Of a stretch of 64,000 bases of DNA, positions 23,434-33,217 are shown in pieces (the first letter of the stretch is position 1; each line of letters opens with the position of its first letter). The DNA lies in assembly GCA_002898575.1 (NCBI GenBank), contig BEHT01000013.1:1-64000 (forward strand), in the 5' to 3' direction. Origin of the DNA: a bacterium HR17 (GTDB taxonomy: Bacteria > Armatimonadota > Fervidibacteria > Fervidibacterales > Fervidibacteraceae). A program made the translations under genes and the position numbers. A model generated the notes under the pieces. That model saw only the letters and a program-made list of their open reading frames with translations, was not told the DNA's origin and made no database searches.

Positions 23434-23499
23434 GATGACGCATAGCGCACGCTAACGGTGCCGTATCCGACACAGCGCAGAAAGGAGGCAACGCAACCT

Positions 23500-24345
23500 G
23501 TGCATGGGCGTTATCGGGGCGATTTAGGCATGTGGATGTTCTTACTCCATCGGCTCACGGGTGTCGGTATTTTCGTTTTTCTGCTGGTGCACATCGTGGA
23601 CACCTCGCTGATTGGGTTCAGCCCGAAGGCTTACGACCACATGGTTTGGCTGTATCATCACCCCGTCTTTCGGGTCGGCGAAATCTTGTTGCTGGGCGCC
23701 GTGCTGTTGCACGCGCTCAACGGCGTGCGGGTCATTGTCATGGACTTCGTGCCCGCATGGACGGTTTACAACCGCCAATTGATTGTCGGCGTCGTCGGGG
23801 CGTTTGTCGTCCTGTTCGTCCCGTCCGCTGCCGTCATGTTCAGTTACATGCTGCAAGGTAGCGAACCCCTTAGCGTGGGCAACTTGCTGGAATGGCGGGC
23901 GTGGTTGCCGGCAGCCGCCAGCACTTTAGCCGTCGCTGCCGTGAGCGTGCCGAGTTTGACTTTACCCCGCCCGCAACCGCCTGCTCGCCCCGTTGGCGGC
24001 ATGGAGTTTCTGGGTTGGGCGTTCATGCGGGTCTCAGGCATTTTGCTCATTTTCCTCGTGCTGGGGCACTTTGCCATCATGCACTTGCTGGACGGAGGCG
24101 TCAATCGGATCAATGCCGCCTTCGTCGCTCAGCGGTGGGCAAATGTCGGTTGGCGCTTTTACGACTTCGCGATGCTCCTGCTGGCGATGGGACACGGCGT
24201 TTGGGGCATGCGGACGGTGCTATTGGATTTCGTCCACCGCCCGACACGGCGCTTTTGGGCGCTTGCTGCCCTTTACACGCTTTCTGGCGCCGTCATGGTC
24301 TTGGGCGCGTTGGTTCTGTTCACCTTTCAAGCACCGTCACGCTAA
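23500..24345 (+). CDS. Fused SdhC-SdhD succinate dehydrogenase membrane anchor
   Basis: This 281-residue protein contains two three-helix units. The first (WMFLLHRLTGVGIFVFLLVH, then HALNGVRVIVMDF) is SdhC-like. The second (FMRVSGILLIFLVLGHFAIMHLL, then GHGVWGMRTVLLDF) is SdhD-like. Both contain an H-x3-G-x-R-x4-D pattern, so each half could supply heme b ligands. Normally these are two separate proteins. The start is the GTG at 23500, 11 bases after AAAGGAGG; a longer start at 23458 would place this SD inside the gene. It leads the sdhA-sdhB operon. Confidence 0.85.
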   Translation: MHGRYRGDLGMWMFLLHRLTGVGIFVFLLVHIVDTSLIGFSPKAYDHMVWLYHHPVFRVGEILLLGAVLLHALNGVRVIVMDFVPAWTVYNRQLIVGVVGAFVVLFVPSAAVMFSYMLQGSEPLSVGNLLEWRAWLPAAASTLAVAAVSVPSLTLPRPQPPARPVGGMEFLGWAFMRVSGILLIFLVLGHFAIMHLLDGGVNRINAAFVAQRWANVGWRFYDFAMLLLAMGHGVWGMRTVLLDFVHRPTRRFWALAALYTLSGAVMVLGALVLFTFQAPSR

Positions 24346-24425
24346 ACTTGCCATGACATGATGAACACAAGCGGTGCGGAAAAACAGTCCTGTGCCCATA
24401 CGAGTTCAAGTTGAGGTGACTGCCC

Positions 24426-26204
24426 ATGCAAATCGTGCGGCACCGTTACGATGCCGTCGTGGTAGGTGCTGGCGGCGCCGGGTTAATGGCGGCGCTCAAC
24501 CTCGCGCAAGCAGGTGTGCCGACAGCGGTGCTCAGCAAACTGTACCCGACCCGCTCCCACACAGGCACAGCGCAAGGCGGTATCGGTGCGGCATTGGGCA
24601 ACATGGAAGAAGACCACTGGGAATGGCATGTCTTTGACACCATCAAGGGCAGCGATTACCTTGCCGACCAAGACGCCGTAGAAGTCATGTGCCGTGAAGC
24701 CATTGACTGCGTCTACTTTCTGGAACACATGGGCTTGCCCTTTGACCGCACGGACGAAGGTAAAATCATGCAGCGGCGCTTCGGTGGGCACACCAACAAC
24801 ATCACGGGTGAACCCGTTCGGCGCGCTTGCCACGCTGCTGACCGCACAGGGCACATGATTTTGCAGACGCTCTACCAGCAATGCATCCGCTACGGTGTCC
24901 AGTTCTTCAACGAGTTTTTCCTGACCGATTTGCTGCTGACGGGCGACCCGTTGGATCCAGCGACGCGGTGCTGTGGCGCCGTGGCGTTGGAGATGCGAAC
25001 AGGCATCTTGCACATCTTTCACGCCAAAGCCGTGCTGTTTGCGACAGGAGGCTTCGGGCGCATCTACAAGGTCACCAGCAACGCCCACACGCTCACGGGT
25101 GACGGTTGTGCTGTCGCATGGCGGCGAGGCATCCCGTTGGAAGACATGGAGTTTTATCAGTTCCACCCGACAGGCATTTACAAGTTGGGCGTGCTACTGA
25201 GCGAAGCGGCGCGGGGTGAAGGGGCTTACCTCCTCAACGGGTTAGGCGAACGCTTCATGGCGCGTTATGCGCCCAAGTTAATGGAATTGGCGCCCCGCGA
25301 TTTGGTCAGTCGGGCGATGTATCTGGAAATCCGCGAAGGGCGCGGGGTCAACGGTAAAGATTACTTGCATTTGGATGTCCGCCACTTGCCCAAAGAGGTG
25401 TTGGAAAAGAAACTGCCCGACATCACCGAATTTGCCCGCATCTACTTGGGCGTTGACCCCGAAAAAGAGCCTGTCCCCGTCCAACCGACGGCGCATTACG
25501 CGATGGGCGGCATCCCGACCGATGTGCATGGGCGAGTCGTTGTGGACGAAAAGAACACACCCCTCACCGGCTTCTACGCAGCGGGCGAATGTGCCTGCGT
25601 CTCAGTGCACGGGGCAAATCGGTTGGGCACCAACTCGCTCGTGGACATCCTCGTGTTCGGGCGACGGGCGGGGTTGCATATGGCGCAATTCTGTCGTGAG
25701 GCTGACTTCCCGCCATTGCCCGACAAGCCTGAAGCGATGACAATGGAACGCATCCGACACTTGCTCAACAACACCGACGGCAAATGGCGCGTCGGTCAAA
25801 TTCGGCGCGCACTGCAGGAAGTCATGATGGACAAGGCGTCCGTCCTGCGCACGGGCGACGGGCTGCGGGAGTGTTGGGACAAGGTGCGGGATTTGAAAGG
25901 GCAATATGCGCAGGTGCGGTTGGACGACCACCATCGGGCGTTCAACCTTGACCTCATTGAAGCGCTGGAATTGGGCTACCTGTTGGATTGCGCCGAAGCC
26001 CTCGTCGCCAGCGCCCTCAACCGCGCGGAAAGTCGCGGCGCCCATTACCGTGAGGACTTTCCCCAGCGCGACGACGCCAACTGGCTCAAACACACGCTCA
26101 TCTACCGGCGGGACAAAGGGCACAAGGCAGGCGATGCAGAGGTAGAGTTCCGCTACAAGCCCGTCGTCATCACCAAGTATCCGCCGCAGGAACGGAAATA
26201 TTGA
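24426..26204 (+). CDS. sdhA: Succinate dehydrogenase flavoprotein subunit
   Basis: The 592-residue FAD subunit oxidises succinate to fumarate on the cytoplasmic side. It has the dinucleotide motif VVGAGGAGLMAALNLAQAG, the FAD-attachment segment LYPTRSHTGTAQGG with the flavinylated His, RRFGGHTNN, the active-site arginine and histidine regions QFHPTGIYKLGVLLSEAARGEGAYL and PTAHYAMGGIPT, and GANRLGTNSLVDILVFGRRA. Full length for the family. It lies between the anchor gene and sdhB. The stop codon overlaps the sdhB leader. Confidence 0.95.
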   Translation: MQIVRHRYDAVVVGAGGAGLMAALNLAQAGVPTAVLSKLYPTRSHTGTAQGGIGAALGNMEEDHWEWHVFDTIKGSDYLADQDAVEVMCREAIDCVYFLEHMGLPFDRTDEGKIMQRRFGGHTNNITGEPVRRACHAADRTGHMILQTLYQQCIRYGVQFFNEFFLTDLLLTGDPLDPATRCCGAVALEMRTGILHIFHAKAVLFATGGFGRIYKVTSNAHTLTGDGCAVAWRRGIPLEDMEFYQFHPTGIYKLGVLLSEAARGEGAYLLNGLGERFMARYAPKLMELAPRDLVSRAMYLEIREGRGVNGKDYLHLDVRHLPKEVLEKKLPDITEFARIYLGVDPEKEPVPVQPTAHYAMGGIPTDVHGRVVVDEKNTPLTGFYAAGECACVSVHGANRLGTNSLVDILVFGRRAGLHMAQFCREADFPPLPDKPEAMTMERIRHLLNNTDGKWRVGQIRRALQEVMMDKASVLRTGDGLRECWDKVRDLKGQYAQVRLDDHHRAFNLDLIEALELGYLLDCAEALVASALNRAESRGAHYREDFPQRDDANWLKHTLIYRRDKGHKAGDAEVEFRYKPVVITKYPPQERKY

Positions 26205-26263
26205 GAGGCGTGCGACAGCATGCCCAAAAATTTCGCAACCGTGTTGCCGAGGTGAACGAAACG

Positions 26264-26983
26264 ATGCAGGTGCAAGTGCGCATCTTGCGGTTTGATCCTG
26301 AAAAGGACGGTCAACCTTACTGGCAGGAATTTCGGGTGGACGCCGACCCCAGCGACCGCGTGTTGGATTTGTTGCACACCATCCGCGACGAACATGACGG
26401 GACGCTGGCATTTCGGCGGTCCTGCGGGCATGGCATTTGCGGCTCCGATGGGATGGTCATCAACGGCAAAAATCGGCTCGCTTGCAAAACGCTCGTCAAA
26501 GACCTCAAGCAACCCATCACCCTTGAGCCGCTGCGGGGCTTTCGGGTCATCAAAGATTTGGTCGTGGACATGGAACCCTTTTTCGCCAAGTATCGGCGGG
26601 TCATGCCTTATCTCATCAACGACGAGCCGCCCCCCGAAAAAGAGCGGTTACAATCGCCTGAAGAGCGCGAGCGCTATGACGACACGACCAAATGCATCTT
26701 GTGCGCCTGCTGCACGACAGGTTGCCCCGTGTTTTGGGTCAACAGCGAATTTCTCGGACCTGCCGCGTTCGTTGCGGCACATCGCTTCGTCTTTGACAGC
26801 CGCGACCGCGCGGCAATAGAGCGGCTGCAAATTCTCGCCGAGTATGGCGGTGTCTTCAACTGCCACATGGCGTTCAACTGCGTGGACGCTTGCCCGCGCG
26901 GCATCAATGTCACCAAAGCCATCTTGGAACTGCGCCAAGCCATCCTTGGTGGGGCTGTTTCGTCATCACCCGAACGCGGGTAG
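26264..26983 (+). CDS. sdhB: Succinate dehydrogenase iron-sulfur subunit
   Basis: This 239-residue subunit passes electrons from FAD to quinone. The plant-type [2Fe-2S] cluster is bound by SCGHGICGSDGMVINGKNRLAC. The [4Fe-4S] and [3Fe-4S] sites are formed by CILCACCTTGCP and CHMAFNCVDACPRGI. I chose the ATG at 26264, eight bases after GAGGTGA. A longer in-frame start at 26201 overlaps sdhA but lacks an SD. It is the last gene of the sdh operon. Confidence 0.93.
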   Translation: MQVQVRILRFDPEKDGQPYWQEFRVDADPSDRVLDLLHTIRDEHDGTLAFRRSCGHGICGSDGMVINGKNRLACKTLVKDLKQPITLEPLRGFRVIKDLVVDMEPFFAKYRRVMPYLINDEPPPEKERLQSPEERERYDDTTKCILCACCTTGCPVFWVNSEFLGPAAFVAAHRFVFDSRDRAAIERLQILAEYGGVFNCHMAFNCVDACPRGINVTKAILELRQAILGGAVSSSPERG

Positions 26984-27562: not shown

Positions 27563-28699
27563 TCATTCAGACAATCCGACCGCTGCCCGCGCCGCTTTGA
27601 TGGCATTCAAATAGGCATCAGGTAAGTTGGAACGAGGAAAGAAGCGAGGTTGGTGGGAGTAAATCCAAACATACTCGTCGCTCAACTCCAACGCCGTCTG
27701 CAACGACCGCTGAAACTCAGCGGGTGAGAAGTAGTTTCTGCGAAAGTCCCTCACATCCCAAGGTTGCCTCACGCTGTTGTAATCCAGCCACAACCCAAAC
27801 CCGACGCGCATTTTGCGGCGATAAAGGTCAGGAAACAGCGAAAAAGCAGCGGCTTTGTTGACGATGGTGTGGTAGGCTTCCAAAAACTGGTGACGCTCCT
27901 TGAACCCGTAAGCAAACTCGCACAAGTCCACAAACTTTGCCCGCTCGTCCGCCGCCTCCATCATCCCGTCCACAAACGCAGGCAACAACCCATAAGCGTT
28001 TTGCTCGGGTGATTTTTTCCGTTCGGTAGGATGCATCGGTAAATATGAATGCGCCCAAAACATCAGGACGGTGATGTCGGGGAAAACCTCCCTCGTCGCT
28101 TCCGTCAACGCCCGTCCACATCGCCGAACCCGCTCCACATACTCCGCAAACGGCTTGTCCACTCGCTCCCGCATGGACGGATAATGGAAAAAGTAAGCGC
28201 CGTAGTGCTCAGGGTCAAGGATGATGCCCTTCATGCCACCTTCTTTGGCAATCGTCACCAAAACCCGCCAATTGTTGACAATGACCTTCCATCGCCTATC
28301 GTCAAACCAGTTGAAGCCAAAATCCTGCCCTTGCGAGCAAATGCAAGCAGGCAGAAAGTTGTCGGTGAACTTGCGCCATCGGGCAGCCTTTAGGTCGTCA
28401 ATGGCGGGGCGAAAATCTTCCAAGCGAAAGGCTTTAGGACCGAACAAGTTCCATGCCAGTTGATTGCCCGTGTGGGTCTCACCTTTTTGCCAAGCCTTTC
28501 TGTCAATGGCGACGGCGATGCCGATGCCGTCAAAGGGCATCAGCTCCATCTCTTGCCAATGTTCTCGGACATACATCGTATCCCTGATGCCCCAACCATA
28601 GTAGATGAGTTTCTTGCGAGGCGCTTGGGTAAAAGGTGGGATACTCAGCCATACCACCAAACCGGCAACGATGAAAACGGTCAACGCCACTGCACGCAT
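27563..28699 (-). CDS. Exported or anchored protein, perhaps a glycoside-hydrolase-like TIM barrel
   Basis: This 378-residue protein begins with a hydrophobic segment (ALTVFIVAGLVVWLSI), so it is secreted or membrane-anchored. The rest is soluble. LIYYGWGIRDTMYV, MKGIILDPEHYGAYFF, ITVLMFWAHSYL and VGFGLWLDYNS suggest barrel strands with acidic residues at their ends, like glycosidase-type TIM barrels. I cannot assign a family. It shares the strand and a possible operon with the propeller pseudogene, so a polysaccharide-related role is an inference. Confidence 0.6.
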   Translation of the reverse strand: MRAVALTVFIVAGLVVWLSIPPFTQAPRKKLIYYGWGIRDTMYVREHWQEMELMPFDGIGIAVAIDRKAWQKGETHTGNQLAWNLFGPKAFRLEDFRPAIDDLKAARWRKFTDNFLPACICSQGQDFGFNWFDDRRWKVIVNNWRVLVTIAKEGGMKGIILDPEHYGAYFFHYPSMRERVDKPFAEYVERVRRCGRALTEATREVFPDITVLMFWAHSYLPMHPTERKKSPEQNAYGLLPAFVDGMMEAADERAKFVDLCEFAYGFKERHQFLEAYHTIVNKAAAFSLFPDLYRRKMRVGFGLWLDYNSVRQPWDVRDFRRNYFSPAEFQRSLQTALELSDEYVWIYSHQPRFFPRSNLPDAYLNAIKAARAAVGLSE

Positions 28700-28727: not shown

Positions 28728-28955
28728 CTAATGCTGGGGCGACATGCGTTTCAAGCGGTCAGCGTAGACGCGTAATTGGGCGACGCGCTCTTGTGGGGGC
28801 AATTTTAGGCTAAAGAGGAAAGCGCGAAGGCTGCCGTGGAGAGATTGCGCTGAACGCGTCGCCAACCATCGCCATGCCCGCCAACGATGTTTGAGCACTT
28901 CCCGCTGCCAGCGGCGCTTGAGAAAAGCATTGACCCGTTTCCCAAAGCGCGCCAT
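28728..28955 (-). CDS. Small basic hypothetical protein
   Basis: This 75-residue, Arg-rich protein has no recognisable family. It is kept as a gene because the ATG follows GAGGTGACGCTCA and because it sits tightly in an operon, 6 bases after the probable selenoprotein gene and 28 before the next one. A run of basic residues and a helix-rich pattern (RAWRWLATRSAQSLHGSLRA) are visible. No membrane helix or signal is seen. Confidence 0.55.
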   Translation of the reverse strand: MARFGKRVNAFLKRRWQREVLKHRWRAWRWLATRSAQSLHGSLRAFLFSLKLPPQERVAQLRVYADRLKRMSPQH

Positions 28956-28961
28956 TGAGCG

Positions 28962-29480
28962 TCACCTCGTTCGGGTCGCGCGCTCCTTTAAAAGCGCCAC
29001 CAATCGGCGTTCAAACTCGCGAAGCCGTTCGCCAAACAACAGACCGACTTGCACCTCGCGGATATAGCCGTAGCGGTCTATAAGCAAAGTCGTGGGCGTC
29101 ACCGTGATGCGCCGCAAAGACAGTGGCAACCGGTTGGGCTCCCATCGCAGCAGCAGGTAATTGACGCCAAACCGTCGGGCTGCTTCCCGTTGTTCTTCTG
29201 GGCTTGCTGTGGAGAGCCCGATGACGACCAAGCCTTGGCGCCCGTAGCGTCGTGCCCACTTAGCAAGGTGTGGCACCTCCACACCGCAGGCGCTTCAGCC
29301 TGGTGACCAAAAGTTCATCACGACGACTTTGCCACGCCATTGACTAAACGGGTAAGATTTGCCCCGCAAATCGCGCAAGACGAGGTTGTCTATGACGCGT
29401 CCTTTAAGCGCCGACAAGGCAGTGACCGGATCAGCATGTGCTATTGCTGATGTCGCAAAGACCAAACTGATCACCAGCAC
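28962..29480 (-). CDS. Probable selenoprotein: TlpA/thioredoxin-like protein with in-frame TGA at the CxxC site
   Basis: The 172-codon frame runs unbroken except for one TGA at 29295-29297. Before it come a short signal peptide, VIDNLVLRDLRGKSYPF and KVVVMNFWSPG. After it come SACGVEVPHL, LVVIGLSTASPEEQREAARRFGV and the cis-Pro motif VTPTTLLIDRYG. Aligned with TlpA-like proteins (FWxxWCxxC), the TGA sits at the first redox Cys, giving U62-S-A-C65. A perfect hairpin follows at the distance expected for a bacterial SECIS. The start is GTG 29480 after AAAGGGG. Its neighbours on both sides are intact. If translated with Sec it would be an exported thiol-disulfide oxidoreductase; otherwise it is a pseudogene with a nonsense mutation. 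Confidence 0.75.
29267..29285 (-). promoter_or_regulatory. Candidate bacterial SECIS hairpin
   Basis: Reading the minus strand, nine bases after the TGA come GGTGTGG, a five-base loop AGGTG and CCACACC, a perfect 7-bp stem. The apical loop starts 17 nt after the TGA and has G among its first two bases. These two features match the published general model of bacterial SECIS elements bound by SelB (loop roughly 16-37 nt from the UGA, a G early in the loop). The hairpin lies inside the coding frame, as bacterial SECIS elements do. Confidence 0.65.
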
Positions 29481-29502: not shown

Positions 29503-30603
29503 CTAAAGGCTCAATAACTTAGGTGGGTTAGGTGCACGGCTGAGCAACTCAACGCTCTTTTCTCGCACCCATACTAAATCTTCCAGACGCACACCACCCA
29601 TTGGGGGAACGTAAACCCCCGGTTCTACTGTAACGACCATACCCGCGCGCAAAGTTTCACGGGAGCGGTGGCTAAGCGCGGGTGCCTCATGGACTTCCAA
29701 GCCGACACCGTGCCCGGTGCTGTGCAGAAAGAATTTATCAAGACCGTAAGCCTTCAGCGATTGGCGGACAACTTGATGGACGGTGCGGGCTTTGACACCG
29801 ACCTGGAGGGTCTCTATGCCGCGTTGTTGAGCCTCCCAGACGGCGCGATACAGTCGCCTCTGTTCCGATGTCGGGCGTCCCACGACGATCGTGCGTGTCA
29901 AATCCGAACAATAGCCCTTTACAGAAGCCCCCAGATCAAAAGTCACTAAATCCCCTTTGCCGATGCGGCGTTCAGACGGTGCTCCGTGAGGAAGAGCGGT
30001 CCGTTCACCAGACACAACAATCGGCGGAAAGGCTAAACCGTCGGCTCCGTGTGTCCGTAAAAACGCCTCTATCTCCCACGCCAACTCACGCTCTGTCATG
30101 CCGATTCTGAACACGCTGAGGGCATGCTCAAAGGCGGCATCTGCCAGCGCCGCTGCTTTCTGAATTAGGGCGATTTCCGCGTCATCTTTTACCGCTCGCA
30201 GCGGTTCCACAAGGTCTGCCGTGCTGAGCAACCGCGTCGCCGTCCCCTTCAGTTGGTCGCGCAGCGCGTCCAGAAAGGCGACAGTGCAATAGTGGCTCTC
30301 TATCCCTACCTGCCTCCACCGCTTCTTCTGCACCAACCGCGCGACCGTTTGCGGGTAGCGACGGGTAACGGTGACCTGCACCTGCGTCCCACGCGTTTGT
30401 TCCTTTGCCTGCGTTTGATAGCGTCCGTCGGTGACCAAGATGGCGTCGTCGTCGCGCCCGATGACCAACACGCCGGCGCTGCCGGTGAAACCGGTCAAGT
30501 AGCGGATGCTGGCGCGATTGAACACGATCACCGCTTGCAAGCGCCGCTCCTGCAACTGTTCACGGACGCGCTGCAAGCGGTGCCGGAAAATTGCTGAGTC
30601 CAT
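29503..30603 (-). CDS. M24 family Xaa-Pro aminopeptidase
   Basis: The 366-residue protein has the creatinase N-terminal domain (RYLTGFTGSAGVLVIG) and the pita-bread metallopeptidase domain. The five metal ligands are visible: both Asp in VTFDLGASVKGYCSDLTRT, His in HSTGHGVGLEVHE, Glu in TVEPGVYVP and Glu in GVRLEDLV. It removes N-terminal residues before proline in the cytoplasm. The gene abuts aroQ (no gap), a common arrangement in Firmicutes-like genomes, where efp often follows. Here the thioredoxin gene follows instead. Confidence 0.9.
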   Translation of the reverse strand: MDSAIFRHRLQRVREQLQERRLQAVIVFNRASIRYLTGFTGSAGVLVIGRDDDAILVTDGRYQTQAKEQTRGTQVQVTVTRRYPQTVARLVQKKRWRQVGIESHYCTVAFLDALRDQLKGTATRLLSTADLVEPLRAVKDDAEIALIQKAAALADAAFEHALSVFRIGMTERELAWEIEAFLRTHGADGLAFPPIVVSGERTALPHGAPSERRIGKGDLVTFDLGASVKGYCSDLTRTIVVGRPTSEQRRLYRAVWEAQQRGIETLQVGVKARTVHQVVRQSLKAYGLDKFFLHSTGHGVGLEVHEAPALSHRSRETLRAGMVVTVEPGVYVPPMGGVRLEDLVWVREKSVELLSRAPNPPKLLSL

Positions 30604-31074
30604 TCAGGGCGCCTCCTTTGAAATTGGTTGGCGCTGCCGTGCGATAGCGACCGCCGCCCGCAACCCCAGCAGGTAACTGTCCACGCCAAAGCCGCAAATC
30701 TGTCCGACAGCGATGGGGGCGATGACTGAATAGCGGCGAAACTCCTCACGCGCGTGGATGTTGCTCAGGTGCACCTCCACGACGGGCAGCCCGACCGCAG
30801 CCAGTGCGTCCCGCAAAGCGATGGAATAGTGCGTCAACGCCCCTGGGTTGATGACGATCGCGTCTGCCCAGCGGCGTGCTGCATGGATGGCGTCAATCAG
30901 AGCGCCTTCGTGGTTGCTTTGCACGATTTGCAGTTCAGCGCCCAACTCCGTTGCCAGTGTCTGCAGCGCAGCGTTAATGGCGTCCAGCGCTGCCGTCCCA
31001 TAAACTTGCGGCTCGCGTTCACCCAAAAGGTTCAGGTTCGGTCCATGAACGACCAACACTCTCACCGTCGTCAC
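30604..31074 (-). CDS. aroQ: 3-dehydroquinate dehydratase, type II
   Basis: This 156-residue enzyme converts 3-dehydroquinate to 3-dehydroshikimate in the shikimate pathway. [21 protein letters not shown] carries the catalytic Arg and Tyr. [51 protein letters not shown] and [13 protein letters not shown] are all type II signatures. Length is normal. It is 7 bases from the upstream ligase-like gene and adjacent to the M24 peptidase. Confidence 0.95.
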
Positions 31075-31081
31075 TTTGGCG

Positions 31082-33217
31082 TCACCCCGCTCCGCTGCGG
31101 CTCAACCGTAACAGCCGCTGGATTTCACCCAGTTGCCGCCGCACAAATTCCCCTTGTCCGTGCGCCGCCTCAGGATCGCCGGCTTTCAGGATGGGCAAAT
31201 AGGCATCGCGGAAACTGCGGAACGCTTTCGCAGCGCTGTTAAGGAGCAACCGCGCTTCGTTGCGCTTGCCACTTGCCAGCAGGTGTTCCGCCAACCGCAC
31301 TTTGCCCGCCGCGATGAAAATGTCCTGCCACTGCTCAACGGGTTTGTAACGCCCGTAAGCGCTTTCCTCCAGCGCTACCAGCTGCCGATAAATTTGCAAC
31401 GCCATGCCGGTTTTGTTCTGCCACTCCAACAATTCGCCCAACCGCAGTAGCGCCTCCGTGTCCGTTCGGTTGAACCGCAAGGCAGTGCGCAGCGCCCTTT
31501 CAGCCTCATCCAGTTTGCCCATCGTCTGTAAAATGCGCGCCTTGACCTTGTAATTGCCCGAACGCGTCGGCTGCAAGCGGATGGCTTCCTCACACAATTG
31601 CAGCGCTTGTTGGAGCCGACCTTCATCGCCCGTCGCTTCCGACCACGCAGCCAGCAACACCGCGCGGTCAATTTTGTGCCGCGCGTTGAGCGGGTCAACT
31701 TCACCCGCCCGCTCCAGCCAATAAAGGCGCGCTGATGGCAACACCTCTTTCCGCGCCAACCCAGCGAAATACGCCCCACGCGCCACTGCAATTGTATGCC
31801 AAAGCCCGCCAAGCAACGGAACCAACAAGACGCATTGCCATTTCCAAGGCAAACGAACAGTTCGGCAAGTCAGTAAATGAGCGTTCGGTAACTCAGCAGC
31901 CTGCAGGTCAGCAGGCGGCGCAAGCACAATTCCGCACACAACCGCCAGCGTCAGCAAATTTGCCAGTGTCATCCACGCCGTCTCAACGAGATTGTGCGAG
32001 CAAAAGGCGATGACCGCAGCGATGCAACCGTAACGGATGGGTAAATCGGAAAGGCGGTAGGCAGGCGGGTTGGAATTCGGCAAATTGGCGGTTCGGTGGG
32101 TCGGTAGGCAAGCGAAGTGAGTGAAAAGCAAAACGGCAAAGAAAAGGAGAAGGAGCGCCAAACCAGCGAAACCGCTTTCCATTGCCACCTGCAAAAAACC
32201 GTTGTGCGCATGGCGCGTGAAACCGACCGTCGTGAACTGCGGATAAACCCATTCAAAAGTGCCTGCACCAAATCCTGCCAACGGTTTTGCCGTTGCCCCC
32301 GTGAGCGTTGCTTTCCACACGAGCCAGCGGAACAACGACGAATGCGCTTGCGCCGTCCACAGCGTCTCAAACCGCATCCGAACGGGGGGGACAAAAACCG
32401 CCGTCGCACACAGCGTCGCCAAACCGAGCACCAAAGCCAGCCACAACCGCTTGCGAGTCCGCTTCGCGGTGGATTGCGTCATCGCTATGGCGCCGAGCGC
32501 TATCATCCCGATAAGCCACGCTAGCAATGCCCCTTTTGAACCTGTCAACACCATCGCGATGAACAAAAGAAAGGCGACAAAGGCGGGCAGCACCGCCCAA
32601 CCCTGCGGGCGCTGCCACAAAATTCCAGAAGCGACGAAAAAACCCATCAACAAAAAGTTGGCGAACAAGTTGGGCTGCAAAAACGGTCCAAAAATGCGCC
32701 ACGCTAAATTGCCCATCGCTGCGTTGAGGGCATAATCCGCTAACCCTTGCAATGCCGTGACGGTCACCACCGCGACGAAAACCCCCGCTACCCATAAGCC
32801 CCGCCGTTCATCACATAAGCGCCGCACCACCAAGGCGACAACTGCGAACGCCGTCCATCGCCCTGCTTCTAACAAACTTGCCCACCGGTAAACTGACGGC
32901 GCAACTGTCAACCACTGCCATCCGACGAACGCCAGCAAGCAAATTTCCGCAACGGTCAACGGAAGCATCTGCTTGCGCCAAAGATTCCCCACAACTGCCG
33001 CGATGCCCAGAGCCAAAAGAGTTGCCAACACGATACCTGTCCACAACAGATCATTCGTGCCCGTCAAAAAAGGCAAGGCGAGGGCAAAGACAGCGTAGAG
33101 CGCGACAGGCAGCCAACCTTGCACTTGCTTCCAGTGAGTCTTCCAATCGCTCGGCAACTGTGCTGCAGGTTCTCTCCGTGTCGGCGCTTTCATCCGTTGC
33201 TTTGACATCGCCGTCAC
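31082..33217 (-). CDS. O-antigen-ligase-like membrane protein with C-terminal TPR repeats
   Basis: The 711-residue product has about ten to twelve membrane helices in residues 30-480. [14 protein letters not shown] and [26 protein letters not shown] are the Wzy/WaaL-type O-antigen ligase core with its His. The C-terminal 220 residues are tetratricopeptide-like ([56 protein letters not shown]). The family transfers or polymerises surface glycans. Two segments around residues 370-390 and 435-450 read like low-complexity insertions. A possible promoter lies upstream near 33380. Confidence 0.8.

Follow-up and report, generated by a model that had tools for sequence, protein, structure and literature searches.

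TlpA-like selenoproteins with a UxxC redox motif are already known in bacteria, and the gene described here adds to them. Table 1 of PMC13188914 catalogues a thiol-disulfide isomerase-like selenoprotein (cd02966, UxxC) and a Prx-like thiol:disulfide oxidoreductase selenoprotein (PF00578, UxxC). Likened by description, these share with our protein the TlpA-like/AhpC-TSA domain and a single selenocysteine (Sec) that opens the UxxC motif, whereas here several paralogs occur within one genome. A further family, the UGC-containing TlpA proteins (ResA-like WAxxUGC, NF041054), also combines a ResA-like domain with Sec, but its motif is UGC rather than UxxC and our protein matches it weakly (19.8 bits, far under the cut-off of 300). 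By both profile and fold, the closest solved structures are those of ResA of Bacillus, which has the same redox-pair spacing and the cis-Pro, but has Cys where our protein would have Sec, at about 25% identity. As for the RNA signal, the published rules for bacterial SECIS (bSECIS) hairpins give a stem of 4-16 bp, a loop of 3-9 nt with G in the first two loop positions, a distance of 16-37 nt from the UGA and an MFE of -7.5 kcal/mol or lower (PMC13188914). The present locus follows the bSECIS model, with E. coli fdhF as prototype, in having a UGA and then a hairpin at 16-37 nt with G early in the loop, but its family differs in a compact core, GxGGAGGxxCCxC, near the UGA.

The window, a stretch of 64,000 nucleotides from bacterium HR17 of the phylum Armatimonadota (contig BEHT01000013.1), had received a first-pass annotation whose author knew of no selenoprotein TlpA from this lineage. 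The kind of protein is, as above, already catalogued (PMC13188914); what stands of that remark concerns the phylum, which goes unmentioned in the literature searched. Open-access texts on Armatimonadetes, Armatimonadota or Chthonomonas together with selenoprotein or selenocysteine yielded nothing relevant where they were searchable, and the phylum is absent from the main text of a 2016 survey and of the deep-Sep paper. Within the main texts of the open-access literature searched, the paralog expansion and the phylum record appear to be unreported. The features of the gene are as follows.

28962-29480, minus strand: predicted ResA/TlpA-type thioredoxin-fold selenoprotein gene, 172 residues with Sec as residue 62 (frame, Pfam, AlphaFold2, Foldseek)
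29427-29480, minus strand: hydrophobic, signal-peptide-like N-terminus, MLVISLVFATSAIAHADP (translation inspected by eye)
29295-29297, minus strand: in-frame UGA, predicted Sec codon, first Cys of CxxC (aligned with homolog Cys and family UGA)
29286-29288, minus strand: TGC codon of the resolving Cys of UxxC (invariant column C65, alignment A1)
29267-29285, minus strand: bacterial SECIS hairpin, stem GGUGUGG/CCACACC, loop AGGUG at 29278-29274 (covariation; covariance model)
29094-29096, minus strand: cis-proline codon of the thioredoxin-fold type, TPT, residue 129 (invariant column P129, alignment A1)

The frame opens with GTG at 29480, codes from 29480 to 28965 and ends in TGA at 28964-28962, and its sole internal TGA is that at 29297-29295. 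All coordinates given earlier for a 172-codon TlpA-like frame interrupted by this triplet alone were reproduced. The read-through translation runs ...GKVVVMNFWSPG-U-SAC-GVEVPHL..., with WSPG-U-SAC as the redox motif, and in the alignment the UGA falls on a conserved Cys that other homologs keep, so that its placement exactly at the first Cys of the motif is confirmed from both translation and alignment. The protein scores 48.5 bits against PF00578 (AhpC-TSA, cut-off 26) and 42.7 bits against PF08534 (Redoxin, cut-off 26.6). The alignment and the AlphaFold2 model (mean pLDDT 87) show a thioredoxin fold, a redox pair with two-residue spacing and the cis-Pro, and a Foldseek search with the model ranked ResA structures first. 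Among NCBIfam models the nearest were ResA, TlpA and DsbE, all under their cut-offs, including the ResA model PRK03147 (NF002854) at 56.8 bits against 170.

The hairpin has a perfect 7-bp stem that begins nine bases past the TGA, with 16 nt from the UGA to the apical loop. Stem, loop (AGGUG) and spacing all lie within the bSECIS rules (PMC13188914), which bears out both its earlier description and the earlier statement that it obeys known distance and loop rules. The UGA plus 40 nt folds at -14.4 kcal/mol. Compared with shuffles, the free energy is not unusual for GC-rich sequence (z -0.47), and as strong evidence from a single sequence the hairpin did not hold up. We also counted chance occurrences over all TGA triplets of the window, demanding at least 7 contiguous Watson-Crick pairs and the bSECIS loop and spacing rules: 1.0% precede an equally good hairpin, and 0.1% do so at a spacing of 16-17. 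When the count is limited to TGAs flanked on either side by at least 50 open codons, 2 of 83 have such a hairpin. The second TGA with a 7-bp hairpin (60223, minus) was set aside, as it lies in an Arg-rich frame with no redox motif or recognisable protein pattern. An Rfam search with the hairpin returned no matching family. Because the energy of the single hairpin is unremarkable and the chance level stands at 1.0%, the case for Sec had to rest on comparison.

The genome itself (3.15 Mb, 96% complete) holds the whole Sec pathway: selB (C34, 409 bits), selA (C14, 581 bits), selD (C2, 385 bits) and tRNA-Sec (selC; C7, 78 bits), the last with anticodon UCA according to ARAGORN, which identified the runner-up to the tRNA-Sec model as tRNA-Cys. 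SelD is itself a selenoprotein by its motif GGUACKIGP and a hairpin after the UGA (L007:1531, plus). Three TlpA-like paralogs, on contigs C22, C7 and C29, carry TGA at the equivalent codon followed by the same hairpin; in the one on C29 (G000:C29:17069-17107, minus; L126) the redox domain forms the C-terminal end of a longer open frame. No formate dehydrogenase scored over its family cut-off in this genome. The selenoproteins found are SelD and the four TlpA-like proteins, a list that may be incomplete.

From 14 hairpins we built a covariance model; run against the whole genome, it recovered the window gene and the C7, C22 and C29 genes at E below 1e-6, all four being TlpA-like UxxC proteins; after a clear gap, the next match (C9, E 0.82) had no matching frame and was rejected. 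Of the four, the window hairpin (E 2.8e-7) has the lowest score, and its loop-closing position is an A-G mismatch where most others have A-U. Across 291 genomes of the phylum the model found matches in 32, and all 26 of the 26 matched loci inspected are TlpA-like UxxC frames. A scan of a named genome collection gave weak, distant matches only. A protein search of the same 291 genomes placed the C22 paralog and two UGA genes of genome G061 directly below the query, and a profile search of the phylum genomes added many further UGA-bearing relatives. In all frames inspected the UGA takes the place of the first redox-motif Cys, usually followed by about 100 more residues of the fold. Relatives thus have Cys at this codon in some cases and TGA in others, and the picture that would have spoken against Sec, relatives with Cys throughout and no hairpin, is not what we found, since many have TGA with a covarying hairpin.

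Altogether, UGA-containing TlpA genes occur in at least 44 of the 291 genomes (32 by the model and 12 with other hairpin types), and a selB match is present in 41 of these 44. The remaining three (G063, G067 and G209, each with Sec-TlpA) are drafts 61-88% complete. A selB match was present in 29 of the 32 model-matched genomes versus 112 of the 259 others (Fisher p 2e-7, a value that overstates independence because the sequences are related). Two groups of UGA-TlpA genes can be told apart by their motifs: UGPCKASxPHL (L070, L072, L079, L086, L088, L110, L111, L114, L115) and UGxCMAGLPEV (L071, L073, L076, L077, L081). Neither has the compact hairpin; other hairpins fold after their UGA, and that of the UGxCMAGLPEV group, with stem GGGCUGCC/GGUAGCCC and loop GGA, is strongly conserved. 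The genome G045, taken as that of the cultured Chthonomonas calidirosea T49, has two Sec-TlpA matches to the hairpin model.

C1:2054511-2054549 (minus strand) and C1:1995211-1995249 (plus strand), G045: hairpin-model matches (L139, L113), the first inspected in detail

Covariation was assessed on 14 sequences that came from protein searches. The seven pairs of their stem form in 98% of cells, and four of the seven changed on both sides. The covariation score was 0.455, compared with 0.166 in shuffles, and slid structures reached 0.19 at most; 0 of 500 shuffles attained the observed score, a count that overstates independence among related sequences. Columns 17 and 27 form a Watson-Crick pair in each of 39 genes, with all four pair types represented; some members of this set, which was limited to genes with Pro at +8, came from the hairpin model, and that favours pairing. 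The codon pairs are GCG-CCG (20), GAG-CCT (17), GTG-CCA (1, the window gene) and CGG-CCC (1). Column 27 corresponds to the third, silent position of the Pro codon and column 17 to the second base of an Ala, Glu, Val or Arg codon, so the constant Watson-Crick pairing means that a silent proline base tracks its partner one to one. In Cys homologs the same columns pair in 8 of 36, and a stem of 5 bp or more that obeys the rules is found at 22 of 28 Sec sites versus 4 of 36 Cys sites. These alignments indicate a hairpin under selection, covarying in the Sec genes and mostly absent from the Cys homologs.

The gene also keeps its place beside the same neighbours in another genus. Upstream of it, on the same strand, lie the following.

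29503-30603, minus strand: M24 family Xaa-Pro-type peptidase, upstream neighbour (PF00557/PF01321; same order in L055)
30604-31074, minus strand: aroQ, type II 3-dehydroquinase (PF01220; same order in L055)
31082-33217, minus strand: O-antigen-ligase/TPR protein (PF04932; similar gene in L055)

In G061, of that other genus, the order is O-antigen-ligase/TPR protein, methyltransferase, aroQ, pepQ-like peptidase and UGA-TlpA (genes named by eye), and the window has the same order minus the methyltransferase. The two TlpA proteins are 37% identical, and both genes keep the UGA and the hairpin. Downstream of the selenoprotein gene, also on the minus strand, are two open frames (27563-28699 and 28728-28955) for which a Pfam search gave no match. 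Farther off, on the plus strand (23458-26983), succinate dehydrogenase/fumarate reductase-like genes for cytochrome b, flavoprotein and iron-sulfur subunits stand in a row, the iron-sulfur subunit assigned by profile and the others by appearance.

With these data, alternative readings of the interrupted frame can be weighed. If a nonsense mutation or a sequencing error had cut a Cys-type TlpA gene, the hairpin would be there by chance, for which its ordinary stability at this base composition (z -0.47) and the roughly 1% of window TGAs with an equally good hairpin leave some room. But TGA stands at the equivalent codon in 53 different sequences of our tree set, in three paralogs of the same genome and in the syntenic gene of another genus, the stem covaries, and the 110 codons past the TGA still specify the conserved fold, including its invariant cis-Pro. 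Retention of UGA and hairpin in a syntenic gene only 37% identical rules out both a recent nonsense mutation and an error in sequencing, and such an error is rejected also on the recurrence of the TGA in dozens of genomes. A pseudogene is therefore wildly improbable, and the earlier argument that a random nonsense mutation is not to be expected at this codon is borne out by the recurrence of TGA with a covarying hairpin. At the level of sequence comparison, a chance origin of the TGA and hairpin is excluded.

Read-through of UGA is known in bacteria, and the codon might instead be decoded by a near-cognate tRNA or under a reassigned code, with Trp, Cys or Gly inserted in place of Sec. Against this, the gene's own final stop is also TGA, the recoded position is the catalytic Cys with the covarying hairpin next to it, and the genome has a complete Sec pathway with a tRNA-Sec of anticodon UCA and a Sec-type SelD, which leaves this reading with next to no probability. 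Only slightly less improbable is a selenium-dependent switch in which the full-length selenoprotein is no more important than the short product or a second protein initiated at GTG 29282. When selenium runs short, some translation generally ends at Sec codons, and a GTG-started frame of 106 codons does open just past the UGA, but its product would be missing the beginning of the fold and the entire redox motif, and the GTG is not conserved, relatives having GCG or GAG there.

Thus, the gene almost certainly encodes, as far as sequence can tell, a Sec-containing and probably exported ResA/TlpA-type thiol-disulfide oxidoreductase, made by SelB/SECIS recoding. The first reading of the locus as a selenoprotein thioredoxin is upheld by the Sec machinery, the UGA-bearing relatives and the covarying hairpin. 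We infer Sec incorporation at UGA 29297-29295, where SelB carrying Sec-tRNA-Sec would recognise the hairpin at 29285-29267; Sec would be inserted at residue 62 and translation would run on to the TGA at 28964. Export is probable from the hydrophobic N-terminus seen by eye. In the enzyme, Sec would be the attacking nucleophile of UxxC and Cys65 the resolving residue, and the protein probably acts in thiol-disulfide exchange outside the cytoplasm, where it would exchange or reduce disulfides.

A tree built from 53 domains with Sec and 35 with Cys requires at least 5 changes between the two residues. Cys members nested in Sec clades come from G073, G175 and G161, all genomes with no selB match, which is what reversion following pathway loss would give; another Cys member, from G031, belongs to a genome with selB. 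With moderate confidence, we propose that Armatimonadota use most of their Sec in exported TlpA/ResA-type oxidoreductases, a set that has expanded, with a compact family-specific SECIS, repeated Sec/Cys exchange and reversion to Cys where selB is gone. Since Sec-TlpA genes are easily annotated as truncated fragments, the redox enzyme set may be misannotated across the phylum. The Sec-TlpA paralogs, their close Cys counterparts and the cultured Chthonomonas calidirosea T49 make the Sec versus Cys question testable, namely what a thioredoxin-like enzyme outside the cytoplasm gains from Sec in place of Cys, and what course the Sec/Cys exchange takes when the pathway is lost.
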